Positions 2,579-7,878 of a DNA stretch of 32,216 nucleotides are shown here, piece after piece (within the stretch, counting starts at the first letter, position 1; the number at the start of each line of letters is the position of its first letter). Origin of the DNA: an uncultured Methylophilus sp. (GTDB taxonomy: Bacteria; Pseudomonadota; Gammaproteobacteria; Burkholderiales; Methylophilaceae); the NCBI GenBank assembly GCA_936943315.1, contig CAKZJM010000322.1, positions 1 to 32,216 of the forward strand. The letters are read 5' to 3'. The translations under genes and the position numbers were made by a program. The notes beneath the pieces were generated by a model. It was not told the DNA's origin and did not search any database. It saw only the letters and a list, made by a program, of their open reading frames with translations.

Positions 2579-4141
2579 TCAATGTGCGCTGGCAGGGCTG
2601 GCGGTCATGGGATGAAAGCGGGCATATTGGCTGCTCAACCCGAGTAATAGCGACACGGCGAGATAGCTGGCCGCAATCGGCAGAGATTGAGCAATGCCGA
2701 TCGCTTCGCCATGCATGAGGCCAAAAAACGTGAATATGGCGGCGGTCAGTGCAAAAGTGGCCGCCTGGATCAGCTTGCGGTCTATGACGAGGGCGGCAAT
2801 CGCACCCAGCATCAAGCCGCCCAGAATGGCACCGCCGCCCAGCACTTCCAGCCCGTGGTACAGCACACCCACCTGGCCGAGTTTATCCAACCCCAGCGTG
2901 GCGGCATTGGTGCCTGCCACTGCTAGCACATTGTCAATTTGCAGTTTTCCCCAGGCGGCGACATGCGGTAGAAACGCCAGGATAATCGCCGGGGCATGAC
3001 TTTTTGGGGTTTCCTGAAATGCTTGTGCCCCGATCAGCATGCCAATATAGAGCAGGATAGGGGAAATGGCGACCACCGGGATCAGCGAGGCCATGAGCGC
3101 AATGATGCCTAACCAGGAAAGCAACAGCACCATGATGCCGGTGGCAGCTGAGTAACCGATGCGCCCGCCCATGGCTTTCCAGCCGGGGTGGCCGATATAC
3201 ACAGCATTGATGAACGGGTTACCCATCAGGCAGCCCACCAGGCTGATCACGCCATCTGCAGACAATACCCGCGTTGTCGGAAAACTGTCGCCGCCCGCCG
3301 CGGCACTTTCCACGTTGTCCATGGCTTCGACCAGGTCATAAATCCCGAATGGAATGGCGGTGACCAGAATCACGCCCAAGAACTCAAATCCTGAAAAGAC
3401 GTGGCCGAATGCAGGCAACGGTAATGAAAAGCCAAAGTTCGCCAACGCGCCAGTGACATTGTCCATGCTCATATGCGCATAGTTGAGGCCAAACAGGTTT
3501 GAACCCCAGGCAACCAGGGTGCCAGCCGCTATCGCCACCAACCCTGCCGGAACGCCCTTGAAGTAGCGCACGCCGCCGAACCAGCTGGCCAATATGATGG
3601 CAAAACACACAACGCCAACCATGGGGGTCATGAACATTTCGAGGGCCGGGCGCAAGCTGATAAACGCCACTGACACGCCTGCCAAGGTGCCCAGTAACGC
3701 CGCACGCGGTGTGATCTTGCGGATGACGGGCGCAATCAGGCCACCCAGCATCAGGACAAAACTCTGGATAAACACCCAGGCCAGCCCTGCCTCCCAGCCC
3801 TTGACCGGGTCTCCGCTGCTCAGCGAGATCGGCAGCATGATGACAAACACCACCACAAACATATGTGGCACGCTGACGCCCGAGGGTAAGGCGCAGACGT
3901 CATTGCGGCCAGTCTCGCGGGCCAGCTTGAGCGCCAGCCAGGCGTAATACATGGTGCTTAAAAACAGCATGAGGCCGGTGGCAGGCAAGATTCTCCCAAA
4001 CACCATGTCATCCGGCATTTTGAGCACAAACCGCAGCAAGCCGGTGAGCACCAGCAGGTTGACGAGAATATTGGTGCCAAAGCCGAAAAAAGCGTTCCAG
4101 TCACCGGGTGACCAGAGTTTGATGCCTGAAGCCGTTGTCAT
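2579..4141 (-). CDS. Polytopic membrane permease, NCS2-like (xanthine/uracil permease superfamily)
   Basis: About 12 hydrophobic segments; 'GIYDLVEAMDNVESAAAGGDSFPTTRVLSADG' resembles NCS2-type transporters; GAGGAG ribosome-binding site; in operon with amide hydrolases. Confidence 0.65.
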   Translation of the reverse strand: MTTASGIKLWSPGDWNAFFGFGTNILVNLLVLTGLLRFVLKMPDDMVFGRILPATGLMLFLSTMYYAWLALKLARETGRNDVCALPSGVSVPHMFVVVFVIMLPISLSSGDPVKGWEAGLAWVFIQSFVLMLGGLIAPVIRKITPRAALLGTLAGVSVAFISLRPALEMFMTPMVGVVCFAIILASWFGGVRYFKGVPAGLVAIAAGTLVAWGSNLFGLNYAHMSMDNVTGALANFGFSLPLPAFGHVFSGFEFLGVILVTAIPFGIYDLVEAMDNVESAAAGGDSFPTTRVLSADGVISLVGCLMGNPFINAVYIGHPGWKAMGGRIGYSAATGIMVLLLSWLGIIALMASLIPVVAISPILLYIGMLIGAQAFQETPKSHAPAIILAFLPHVAAWGKLQIDNVLAVAGTNAATLGLDKLGQVGVLYHGLEVLGGGAILGGLMLGAIAALVIDRKLIQAATFALTAAIFTFFGLMHGEAIGIAQSLPIAASYLAVSLLLGLSSQYARFHPMTASPASAH

Positions 4142-4173: not shown

Positions 4174-4869
4174 TTAATGTTGTAATGCGTTCACCACTTG
4201 ATGGCTTTCGGTCACCCAGCCAAAAATGGCGCTTTGAGCAGCAAACATGCGCAGGCTCACAGCGTGAAATTCGCGGTTATATGAAGCACAGCAATCGCCT
4301 GGGATCAGGCATCTGAAGCCGCGGTCATTTGCCTCGCGCACGGTGGTGTGTACGCAGACTTCGGTGGTCACCCCGCCCACAATCAGGGTGCTAATCTTGC
4401 GATTGCGTAAAATCAACTCCAGGTCGGTGGCATAAAATGAGCCTTTGCCTGGCTTGTCTATGACGGGCTCTCCCGGCAGGGGATACAGATCTGGAATAAT
4501 GTCGTGCCCGGCCTCGCCACGAATCAGAATGCGGCCCATCGGCCCGGCATCGCCGATGCGTACTTTGGGGGAGCCGCGGTGCACTTTGGCCTCGAACGCA
4601 TCGTGCATGTCAGCCCGGTGACCTTCACGCGTGTGTATCACCAGCATGCCTTGTGCCCTGGCGGCTTTGAGGAGCGCCTGGCAGGGCGCAATGGCTGCTT
4701 TAAGCAAGCTAACATCATTGCCCAGGCTTTGCCCGAAGCCGCCTTCCTCTATAAAGTCGCGCTGCATGTCTATGATCAGAACAGCCGTCTGTTGCGGGTC
4801 AAAAGTGAAGGGTTCCGGCAAGGCAGGCACGGTACAGGTTTTCATAGGGGCTTTTTCTTCATCTAACAC
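4174..4869 (-). CDS. Isochorismatase-like cysteine hydrolase, biuret/triuret hydrolase-like; likely start ATG at 4845
   Basis: 'AVLIIDMQRDF', 'HTREGHRADM', 'GRILIRGEAGHDIIPDLYPLPGEPVIDKPGKGSFYATDLELIL', 'GGVTTEVCVHTTVREANDRGFRCLI' match the BiuH/TrtA-type pattern, including catalytic D, K and C positions. Confidence 0.75.
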   Translation of the reverse strand: MLDEEKAPMKTCTVPALPEPFTFDPQQTAVLIIDMQRDFIEEGGFGQSLGNDVSLLKAAIAPCQALLKAARAQGMLVIHTREGHRADMHDAFEAKVHRGSPKVRIGDAGPMGRILIRGEAGHDIIPDLYPLPGEPVIDKPGKGSFYATDLELILRNRKISTLIVGGVTTEVCVHTTVREANDRGFRCLIPGDCCASYNREFHAVSLRMFAAQSAIFGWVTESHQVVNALQH

Positions 4870-4876
4870 TATTCTG

Positions 4877-4886
4877 ATGTATACAA
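4877..4886. promoter_or_regulatory. Candidate GntR/FCD operator ATGTATACAA over the predicted +1 of the biuH-like gene
   Basis: Near-palindrome sharing 9/10 bases with TTGTATACAA at 7060-7069; FCD-type GntR regulator encoded in the cluster. Confidence 0.55.
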
Positions 4887-4889
4887 CAA

Positions 4890-4905
4890 AGCAAATCGTA
4901 TGCCT
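4890..4905 (-). promoter_or_regulatory. Candidate sigma54 promoter: AGGCATACGATTTGCT on the minus strand
   Basis: Compared with TGGCACG-N4-TTGCW: GG and GC elements at the correct spacing, TTGCT complete; predicted +1 about 4879. Confidence 0.55.
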
Positions 4906-5001
4906 GCGCGCATGTGAGCCAGACTCTGAAAAAAGTTGTTTTAAAACAGTCTTTAACGCGCTGGTTAACGCAGGGGGGATAGACTTAAACAGTCATTGAA
5001 T

Positions 5002-5018
5002 GGCAACAAAATGGTGCG
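5002..5018. promoter_or_regulatory. Candidate NtrC site A: GGCAACAAAATGGTGCG
   Basis: 11/14 informative positions match TGCACCA-N3-TGGTGCA. Confidence 0.5.
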
Positions 5019-5021
5019 GAT

Positions 5022-5038
5022 TGCACCATACTTGTACA
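5022..5038. promoter_or_regulatory. Candidate NtrC site B: TGCACCATACTTGTACA
   Basis: 12/14 informative positions match TGCACCA-N3-TGGTGCA; centre 20 bp from site A. Confidence 0.55.
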
Positions 5039-5080
5039 ACAGAGCGGGTACATTAGGACCTGTAAATCAGTACTTGCCTA

Positions 5081-5449
5081 TCAGGCATTGAGGAAAGACA
5101 CATGGGCGGCGGCGATTTTCCAGCCTTGTGCCGTACGTATCCAGCTTTGACTCTGACGGCCATGGATATCTCCGCGCTTGAATTCGGTGCTGGCGTTGGC
5201 ATAGTCTGTACCATAGGTCGTGATCACCGTATTCAAAAGTATGCGTGCCGCGGGGGCGGGGCGCTGTTTCCTGAAGTTGGCAATTTGCTCCCAGCCATAC
5301 AGATTTTCTGTCGCGCCATAACGCACGGCATGCGGACTTTGCCAGAAAAAATCAATCAGGGCTGTCACGTCATTACTGGTTAGCGCCCGCTCATACGCGG
5401 CAAACACCGCTTCTACTTCAGCCAATATTACGGGGTCGTTGATTTGCAT
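5081..5449 (-). CDS. AtzH/HpxZ-like (DUF3225, NTF2-fold) protein
   Basis: 'EVEAVFAAYERALTSNDVTALIDFFW...AVRYGATENLYGWEQIANFR...' plus position next to an AtzE-like amidase. Confidence 0.7.
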   Translation of the reverse strand: MQINDPVILAEVEAVFAAYERALTSNDVTALIDFFWQSPHAVRYGATENLYGWEQIANFRKQRPAPAARILLNTVITTYGTDYANASTEFKRGDIHGRQSQSWIRTAQGWKIAAAHVSFLNA

Positions 5450-5464
5450 GGAGACCTCAATCTT

Positions 5465-6817
5465 TTAGTGTCTGACCACAGGAGCCTGGCAGACCGATTG
5501 TTGTTGTAACCAGTGAGCCACTGCCAGCAACCTGGATTCCTGGTGAGGGGCGCCAATCAGTTGCACCGCAATCGGTAACTGGCCGGGCACATGCACAGGC
5601 ACGGCCACCACGGGCAAGCCGATGAATGAAATGGGCTGGGTAAACATGCCCATGTTAGGACGTAACGGCATGCGCTGGCCCTGGATCACCATTTCCTCCT
5701 GGCCCAACGGTTGCGCACAACAAGGGGTGGCGGGCGCAATCAGAATGTCATGGTGTGCAAACAGTTGCATGGCCTGCTCAAAAAACCAGCGGCGCAAGCG
5801 CTGTGCCTGGAGATACCAGGTGGCGGGTACGATAGTCCCTGCCGCCAACCTTGGCATCACCAGCGGATCAAACTCGTTGGCTTGCGTGCGCAGTCTTTCC
5901 AGGTGGCGGTTGCCGCCTTCGCTGGCGGTGATCAAATAGGCGGCTGAGCGGGCACGCGCGACCTCAGGCAACTCCACCGTCTTGCTGGCTTGCAGCGCGT
6001 CACATACCGCAGTCACCGCTGCCTGCGCTTGTGCATCGCCTTGCTCAAAATAGCCGCCTAAGCGGGCCACCCGGTTTGAGAGGGGATCGGTTGGCGCCAG
6101 CGGCTGGCTGTCTAACACTTCAAAGCAGGCAGACAGGTCGGCGGCTGAGCGTGCAAACAGTCCGGCGTGGTCAAAACTGTGCACAAACGGAAACATGCCT
6201 TGCAGAGACAACCGGCCGTAGGTAGGTTTGAGTCCAAACAGTCCGCACATTGAAGAGGGCACCCGCACCGACCCATTGGTATCCGAACCGAGTGTGAGCG
6301 GCACAAAGCCAGCCGCCACAGCAGCTGCCGAGCCGCCTGATGACCCACCAGCACTGCGGCTGGGGTCGTGCGGATTGCGGCTGGCACCATAGTGATGATT
6401 TTCCGTGGTGAAGCCGTAGGCATATTCGTCCATATTGAGGGCGCCCAGCAGAACTGCGCCTGCTTGCTGCATTAAATGAACCAACTGTGCATCTGCCGTG
6501 GCTGGAGGATGACGCTGGTTGATTTTGGAACCCGCTAACGTCGAAAGCCCGGCAATATCAAACAGATTTTTGACGGCGTATGGCACGCCCGCCAAGGGCG
6601 GCAATGTCTCACCCCGTTTCCGGGCGGCATCAATCGCAGCCGCTTCTTGCAAGGCGCGGCTAGCGGTCACCGTGGTAAAACTGTTATACCGCCCGTCATG
6701 TTGGGCAATCTCTGCCAGGGCCTGTTCGGTGACACTCACGGCGCTGACCTCTCCTTGACGGATTGCTGCCGCGATTGCCAGGGCTTCATCGCGCCCACTC
6801 ATCAGCGGCGCCTTCAT
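5465..6817 (-). CDS. atzE: AtzE-family amidase (1-carboxybiuret hydrolase-like; HpxY-like alternative)
   Basis: 'GALNMDEYAYGFTTENHHYGASRNPHDPSRSAGGSSGGSAAAVAAG' and 'GSDTNGSVRVPSSMCGLFGLKPTYGRLSLQG'; 4-nt overlap with the AtzG-like ORF. Confidence 0.75.
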   Translation of the reverse strand: MKAPLMSGRDEALAIAAAIRQGEVSAVSVTEQALAEIAQHDGRYNSFTTVTASRALQEAAAIDAARKRGETLPPLAGVPYAVKNLFDIAGLSTLAGSKINQRHPPATADAQLVHLMQQAGAVLLGALNMDEYAYGFTTENHHYGASRNPHDPSRSAGGSSGGSAAAVAAGFVPLTLGSDTNGSVRVPSSMCGLFGLKPTYGRLSLQGMFPFVHSFDHAGLFARSAADLSACFEVLDSQPLAPTDPLSNRVARLGGYFEQGDAQAQAAVTAVCDALQASKTVELPEVARARSAAYLITASEGGNRHLERLRTQANEFDPLVMPRLAAGTIVPATWYLQAQRLRRWFFEQAMQLFAHHDILIAPATPCCAQPLGQEEMVIQGQRMPLRPNMGMFTQPISFIGLPVVAVPVHVPGQLPIAVQLIGAPHQESRLLAVAHWLQQQSVCQAPVVRH

Positions 6818-7032
6818 TGGCCGCTCCTTTCATCACCGGGGCGAAATTCTGGTGCCGGTTCAATATGCTCAGCCAATGGCCAGCCCATCACGCGCTCGGC
6901 ATGGCTGAGCAACAGGGAGTAATGACGCGCGGTGTGTAACAGGTCTTCGGGCTGGAGGGTGATGCCATGCAGTGCTAATTGGCGCGAGATAAATACTAAA
7001 GTGTCAGCATCTTGCTGCGGGGTGTCGGACAA
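6814..7032 (-). CDS. atzG: AtzG-like small subunit (DUF4089; HpxX-like); TTG start
   Basis: 72 aa directly upstream of and overlapping the AtzE-like gene; AGGAG six nt before the TTG. Confidence 0.65.
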   Translation of the reverse strand: MSDTPQQDADTLVFISRQLALHGITLQPEDLLHTARHYSLLLSHAERVMGWPLAEHIEPAPEFRPGDERSGQ

Positions 7033-7059: not shown

Positions 7060-7069
7060 TTGTATACAA
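7060..7069. promoter_or_regulatory. Candidate GntR/FCD operator TTGTATACAA (perfect palindrome) over the predicted +1 of atzG
   Basis: Perfect 10-bp palindrome between the regulator and atzG; near-copy at 4877-4886. Confidence 0.65.
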
Positions 7070-7073
7070 CAGA

Positions 7074-7089
7074 TGCCAAGCAAGTGCCA
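7074..7089 (-). promoter_or_regulatory. Candidate sigma54 promoter: TGGCACTTGCTTGGCA on the minus strand
   Basis: TGGCAC complete; GG/GC at correct spacing; 10/12 positions match TGGCACG-N4-TTGCW; predicted +1 about 7063. Confidence 0.65.
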
Positions 7090-7122
7090 TACCAATGCTG
7101 CTGAAGCGTCGCGGAGAGGGGG

Positions 7123-7878
7123 TTATTTTGTCACTTGCGGGAGCGGCTTTTTTCTTGCCAGGGCTGTGAGTGTCAAGGTTTTTGCAAATTCACGGCTACG
7201 CTGGATATGCCGTTTCATGGCGAGTTTGGCTTTGCCCTTATCCCGCTCTTTAATCAGCTGCAAAATCTCAAAATGCTCATTATAGGTGCGTTGACTGCGA
7301 TTATCGGAGTTAAGGTCGAGGCGGCGGATCACGCGGATGCGGTGATTGATGTTTTTTAATATCGCAGCCAATACCGGTTTGTCGCTGGCAATGGCCAGGC
7401 CGACATGAAAGGCCTCATCTTTACCGCCCAGGTCTACGCCGTCAGAGAGCTCCTGGTCATGCCTCTCTGGGTGCCAAGCGGCCATCATCCCTTCTATTTG
7501 CTTGTCGCTCATGGCATTGACTGCGGATTCCACGATCAGTAATTCGATGGCAATCCTCGCTTCATAATATTCCATCAGTTCATTGACATCCAGCTCGCGG
7601 ATAAAACAGCCCTGCTTGGGGCGTATGCTGACAAAGCCCTCTATTTCAAGGCGTTGCAGCGCCTGGCGGATAGGGGTGCGGCTGACATTAAACATTTCCG
7701 CCAGCACTTGCTCGGTGACACGTGACCCCGGATACAACTCAAAAGAAATGATTTTTTGCTTGAGTTGCGTATAAAGGGTATCGACGGTCGAGGGTTTGTC
7801 GGGTGCTTGTTTTCTGGACATACGTACAATTTGCCGGGAGAGACACTTTAAGATACTTGGATAACAGGCTTTCGGCAA
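7123..7878 (-). CDS. GntR-family transcriptional regulator with FCD-type C-terminal domain; likely start ATG at 7821
   Basis: 'TLYTQLKQKIISFELYPGSRVTEQVLAEMFNVSRTPIRQALQRLEIEGFVSIRPKQGCFIREL' GntR winged helix followed by an all-alpha FCD-like region. Confidence 0.85.
   Translation of the reverse strand: MPKACYPSILKCLSRQIVRMSRKQAPDKPSTVDTLYTQLKQKIISFELYPGSRVTEQVLAEMFNVSRTPIRQALQRLEIEGFVSIRPKQGCFIRELDVNELMEYYEARIAIELLIVESAVNAMSDKQIEGMMAAWHPERHDQELSDGVDLGGKDEAFHVGLAIASDKPVLAAILKNINHRIRVIRRLDLNSDNRSQRTYNEHFEILQLIKERDKGKAKLAMKRHIQRSREFAKTLTLTALARKKPLPQVTK

Follow-up and report, generated by a model that had tools for sequence, protein, structure and literature searches.

In enteric bacteria, NtrC enhancers of the glnA and glnK type consist of paired 17-bp dyads (TGCACC-N5-GGTGCA) located ~100-150 bp upstream of a sigma54 promoter, and at glnA the NtrC sites are spaced three helical turns apart. 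The regulator of atzDGEHF in Pseudomonas sp. ADP is the LysR-type AtzR system. The atzG-E-H pathway has been published, including atzDGEHF of Pseudomonas sp. ADP (PMC6219798), and the betaproteobacterial NtrC regulon has been predicted to include atzF (PMC5343134).

The window analysed here, a stretch of 32,216 nucleotides from a 2.96-Mb, 434-contig draft genome of Methylophilus sp., carries a cluster of related content in which two NtrC-like sites precede a biuH-like gene. The pair resembles the enteric enhancers in its type of dyad and in its distance from a sigma54 promoter, and the NtrC of Methylophilus has a near-identical reading helix; however, the sites at biuH are spaced by two helical turns (20-21 bp), and each has one weak half. 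With Pseudomonas sp. ADP, the cluster shares the atzG-atzE-atzH order and an allophanate hydrolase, but there is no atzD among the identified genes, a BiuH-like enzyme and a putative permease are present, and, in place of the LysR-type AtzR, there are two sigma54 promoters together with a GntR regulator. As in the betaproteobacterial regulon of PMC5343134, the main text of which does not include Methylophilus, an allophanate hydrolase comes under predicted NtrC control, although the promoter concerned here is internal to an atzG-E-H/biuH/atzF cluster, where it precedes biuH.

Gene content of the cluster

On the minus strand, the genes are arranged in the order gntR, atzG-like, atzE, atzH/hpxZ, a 211-bp gap, biuH-like, a gene for a 520-aa membrane protein and a split allophanate hydrolase. 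The regulator (7123-7878) belongs to the GntR/FCD family (PF00392 and PF07729). It is followed by an atzG-like small subunit (6814-7032), recognized by its position before atzE and a match to PF13318 (E = 0.0013) that, at 19.5 bits, is below the cut-off of 24; by an atzE-like amidase (5465-6817; TIGR02715, 610.7 bits, over the cut-off); and by an atzH/hpxZ-like gene (5081-5449; PF11533, 2.5e-48; NF033625 HpxZ, 161.6 bits, over the cut-off). Beyond the gap, the biuH-like gene (4174-4869) encodes an isochorismatase-fold amidohydrolase (PF00857, 8.8e-46) that scores 271.8 bits against NF050097 BiuH, below the 370-bit cut-off; its ORF starts with GTG, with an alternative ATG at 4845. The 520-aa predicted membrane protein (2579-4141), a possible permease, is 78-92% identical in seven orthologous loci; it matched no Pfam or NCBIfam family, and its structure prediction was unusable (mean pLDDT 38.8). 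The allophanate hydrolase (784-2544) is split into an amidase ORF (1216-2544; TIGR02713, 617.7 bits, over the cut-off) and a separate ORF for the C-terminal domain (784-1206; PF21986, 6.2e-49).

Of 22 Methylophilus genomes searched, 6 carry the cluster, which also occurs in two species of a sister genus. In genome G019 (L104, G019:C19), its neighbourhood includes sequence resembling the urea transporter gene urtA, and the L104 stretch examined yielded no allophanate hydrolase.

Paired NtrC-like sites upstream of a conserved sigma54 promoter

The gap between the AtzH-like and biuH-like ORFs spans 4870-5080 and, as the initial annotation had it, measures 211 bp. Both NtrC-like sites lie within it on the minus strand: site 1, distal to biuH, at 5022-5038 (TGCACCATACTTGTACA; in the direction of the gene, TGTACAAGTATGGTGCA), and site 2, proximal to biuH, at 5002-5018 (GGCAACAAAATGGTGCG; in the direction of the gene, CGCACCATTTTGTTGCC). 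Scored against the reference TGCACCANNNTGGTGCA, they match at 12/14 and 11/14 positions, respectively; the coordinates bear out these two matches as first described, together with the 20-bp separation of their centres (5010 and 5030). Each site combines one strong half with one degenerate half, and the inner half-sites together make a perfect inverted repeat, ATGGTGC-GGATT-GCACCAT (5011-5029). The neighbouring sequence TTGTACAA (5032-5039) was considered as a GntR operator and rejected: its TGTACA core is present in only two of the six Methylophilus and swapped for TGCGC in the others, and it was therefore assigned to site 1.

Downstream of the pair, the biuH unit has a predicted sigma54 -24/-12 promoter on the minus strand at 4890-4905 (AGGCATACGATTTGCT, with GG-N10-GC), with its start near 4879. 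The site centres are thus ~131 and ~151 bp upstream of the predicted start, a typical enhancer distance and in agreement with the ~130-150 bp estimated originally. The GGCA...TTGCT element, with its GG-N10-GC, is kept in all eight orthologs of the biuH promoter, and no sigma70 promoter was found in 4800-5500. The suggestion that the gap houses an internal promoter for the downstream half of the cluster is supported by this conserved sigma54 element.

Excess of the pair over chance

The two 17-bp sites upstream of biuH, which resemble TGCACC-N5-GGTGCA, exceed as a pair what is expected by chance. Single matches of the 11/14 type are common, with 186 positions in the 2.96-Mb genome having at most three mismatches and 85 in the reversed control, and no exact TGCACCA-N3..5-TGGTGCA occurs in the genome. 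When the 211-bp gap was shuffled preserving dinucleotides, a 12/14 site appeared in 0.1% of the shuffles and a pair equal to that at 5002-5038 in none of 5000.

No NtrC consensus was seen near the nlmA-glnK-amtB-type or urtA promoters, and the promoters of a second Amt gene and of an ATP-grasp gene were therefore used as positive controls; an independent 17-bp weight matrix was trained only on these two promoters of Methylophilaceae. With this matrix, sites 1 and 2 score 12.4 and 11.5 and rank second and third in the 32 kb. Across 400 kb of a congeneric genome, scores of at least 12.4 and at least 11.5 are reached at 6 and 8 positions, respectively, and no pair within 17-60 bp scores as high as the biuH sites. 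The initial annotation had asked whether weight-matrix scores would be any better than those of random intergenic sequence; the biuH sites beat this background, in which 2 of 41,544 positions reach 11.5, and both of these strong matches lie ~100-130 bp from sigma54-like sites.

Conservation of the pair and of its palindromic centre

The two best matrix matches upstream of biuH occupy the same place, with the exact 20-bp spacing, in all six Methylophilus, and the two species of the sister genus have related sites at a spacing of 21 bp (TGCACCATTAGCATGCC and TGCACACCCAGCGCGCA in G023), so that sites and spacing are conserved in the orthologous promoters of all eight genomes. The outer TGYRC and inner TGC of site 1 are likewise kept in 6/6 Methylophilus. 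G014 and G021 have lower absolute matrix scores, down to 3-6, as does G019 at site 1 with a smaller drop not included in that range. In a column-shuffle test, a pair this good arose in 0 of 20000 permutations, with the proviso that such P values are optimistic because the tests ignore the shared ancestry of the species. The 211-bp gap is otherwise poorly conserved, except for the GGCA...TTGCT element and the sequence GTTGTATACA at the biuH start, each present in 8/8. The retention of the pair in eight species indicates that it is very probably a real, if ordinary, nitrogen-control switch.

The inverted repeat at the centre of the pair invites two other interpretations. A single dyad, ATGGTGC-N5-GCACCAT (5011-5029), could be the operator of another regulator, the NtrC-like outer halves being accidental. 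The repeat is indeed a perfect 7+5+7 one, its GTGC-N5-GCAC core is kept in five of the six Methylophilus, and no second GGTGC-N5-GCACC occurs in 400 kb. However, the outer halves still match NtrC when the dyad is held fixed (P = 0.00015, optimistic for the same reason of shared ancestry), and sites of this type are found at further sigma54 promoters; moreover, the sister genus has an inner spacer longer by one base and its strong half on the outside, and there the palindrome is lost while the two 17-bp sites 21 bp apart stay. We consider a lone central operator very unlikely.

Alternatively, the inverted repeat followed by TTTTG might act as an intrinsic terminator of the atzG-atzE-atzH transcript, possibly besides an enhancer role. 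Consistent with termination, a terminator-like scan match lies at 5029-5011 on the minus strand, 52 nt after atzH, and the hairpin predicted for the window sequence has -10.0 kcal/mol, with a related one predicted in G005 and G012. The hairpin is, however, weakly terminator-like: its U-tract is weak, shuffles yield 0.9 such matches per region, G021 and G019 have lost it, and the conserved outer halves would be left unexplained. Termination as the explanation of the repeat appears rather unlikely, although 5011-5029 possibly plays a dual enhancer/terminator role in the species of the window. As far as sequence comparison can tell, both the central dyad and the terminator fit the conservation less well than a paired NtrC enhancer.

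NtrC as the candidate activator

An NtrC with a reading helix like the enteric one is encoded in the genome together with RpoN, and both are present in all eight cluster-bearing genomes (NtrC by TIGR01818, 706-716 bits over a cut-off of 558.6). The Methylophilus NtrC has a C-terminal match to 1NTC, the DNA-binding domain from Salmonella (E = 1e-12), and its reading helix, GMGRNTLTRK, resembles that of Salmonella NtrC. The helix residues read GAATLTAK in 1NTC and GRNTLTRK in Methylophilus, a difference that arises because 1NTC is a mutant with alanine substitutions at DNA-contacting residues.

The promoter of the Amt ammonium transporter (L170-L177) combines closely related sites, GTGCAATGCAC, with a sigma54 promoter, a layout conserved in 8/8 genomes; it differs from the biuH promoter in that its register is 18 bp and an additional GGTGCA half-site is present. 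At the ATP-grasp promoter, site and sigma54 element are found in five Methylophilus and, more weakly, in two sister-genus genomes. In Methylophilus, the promoter of the nlmA-glnK-amtB type that precedes the first amtB (L208-L215) has a perfect sigma54 site; since it lacks a recognisable NtrC consensus, some doubt attaches to the preference of NtrC in this genus.

The same motif also precedes sigma54-like promoters at PEP-CTERM genes (L149:1501-1517 and L199:11784-11800), which hints at control of these genes by NtrC or a relative. With several other AAA+ activators encoded in the genome, it is conceivable that another activator shares the motif and that the sites at 5002-5038 serve a different member of the NtrC family, e.g., one for PEP-CTERM genes. 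This we hold to be highly improbable: among the subset of response-regulator-type activators compared, the GRNTLTRK helix is limited to NtrC and the others have different helices, the genome has no match above the cut-off for TIGR02915, the PrsR family, and the set of sites includes the Amt promoter.

The matrix scores, the conservation in 8/8 genomes, the sigma54 element, the presence of NtrC and RpoN, the reading helix and the Amt layout all favour the NtrC-enhancer reading put forward in the initial annotation. On these grounds, 5002-5038 is, with high likelihood, a paired NtrC enhancer for the sigma54 promoter of the downstream half of the cluster.

A second sigma54 promoter and a probable GntR operator

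A further sigma54 promoter is predicted upstream of atzG on the minus strand (7079-7094, TGGTATGGCACTTGCT; 12/12 scored positions), with its start near 7068 and its TGGTA...TTGCT kept in 8/8 orthologs. The earlier statement that no comparable pair exists upstream of atzG holds literally, yet the best single site of the window is located there: CGCACCTATAATGAGCA (7274-7290, minus strand) has a matrix score of 15.0, the highest in the 32 kb, lies within the coding sequence of gntR and precedes the sigma54 promoter of atzG by 196 bp. This promoter with its NtrC-like site had been missed, as had the palindrome TTGTATACA at both predicted starts. Because 7274-7290 codes for RTYNEH, synonymous codon choice was tested. 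Per-species P values range from 0.02 to 0.11, and across six species an identical codon is used at three of the five invariant residues (CGC, GAG, CAT) vs 11 of 113 gene-wide (P = 0.006), a constraint that is suggestive, not proof, of an NtrC site within gntR.

The start of biuH carries the proposed GntR operator GTTGTATACA (4878-4887, minus strand), identical in all the orthologs and with two occurrences per 400 kb of background, and the start of atzG carries GTTGTATACAA (7060-7070, minus strand), where TGTATACAA is kept at 8/8 atzG promoters except for TGTATGCAA in one species. At both predicted starts, TTGTATACA or a close variant is present in 8/8 genomes, with five occurrences in 400 kb of background; a palindrome common to the promoters of the cluster and rare elsewhere is probably the operator of its GntR regulator. 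For gntR itself, no conserved upstream operator was seen.

These elements allow a combined scheme, which we regard as distinctly improbable, in which the 19-bp palindrome does double duty, as DNA providing the inner NtrC halves and as RNA the atzG-E-H terminator. NtrC occupancy could then couple termination of the first unit to activation of the second, and, with the site inside gntR, nitrogen would gate, and GntR repress, both halves of the cluster.

Proposed mechanism and implications

For the paired NtrC enhancer, the comparison shows the sequences, their excess over chance, their conservation and spacing, and the presence of NtrC and RpoN, whereas binding, looping, the direction of control and GntR's role are inferred from established NtrC biology. 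Under nitrogen limitation, phosphorylated NtrC dimers would occupy the two sites, which share one face of the helix, and assemble into an active oligomer, which would loop ~110-130 bp to sigma54-RNA polymerase at 4890-4905. ATP hydrolysis by NtrC would drive open-complex formation, and transcription would proceed from biuH onward through the putative permease and the split allophanate hydrolase. By this looping, the biuH-permease-allophanate hydrolase half of the cluster would respond to nitrogen limitation. The GntR/FCD repressor encoded upstream probably adds control by substrate, binding TTGTATACA at the biuH and atzG starts, with its repression lifted by a ligand.

In the open-access literature searched, we found no report of NtrC in Methylophilus; the one paper that contains both words deals with predatory bacteria. 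The biuH enhancer of Methylophilus is a new, well-supported instance of NtrC control, of a kind already known, since atzF was previously predicted as a betaproteobacterial NtrC target (PMC5343134). A methylotroph cluster for biuret/ureide degradation is thereby predicted to be under nitrogen control. The layout, comprising an NtrC site, a sigma54 promoter and a proposed GntR operator at the start, is testable and occurs twice in one cluster, and the NtrC matrix for Methylophilaceae can now be used for mapping the regulon in this family.
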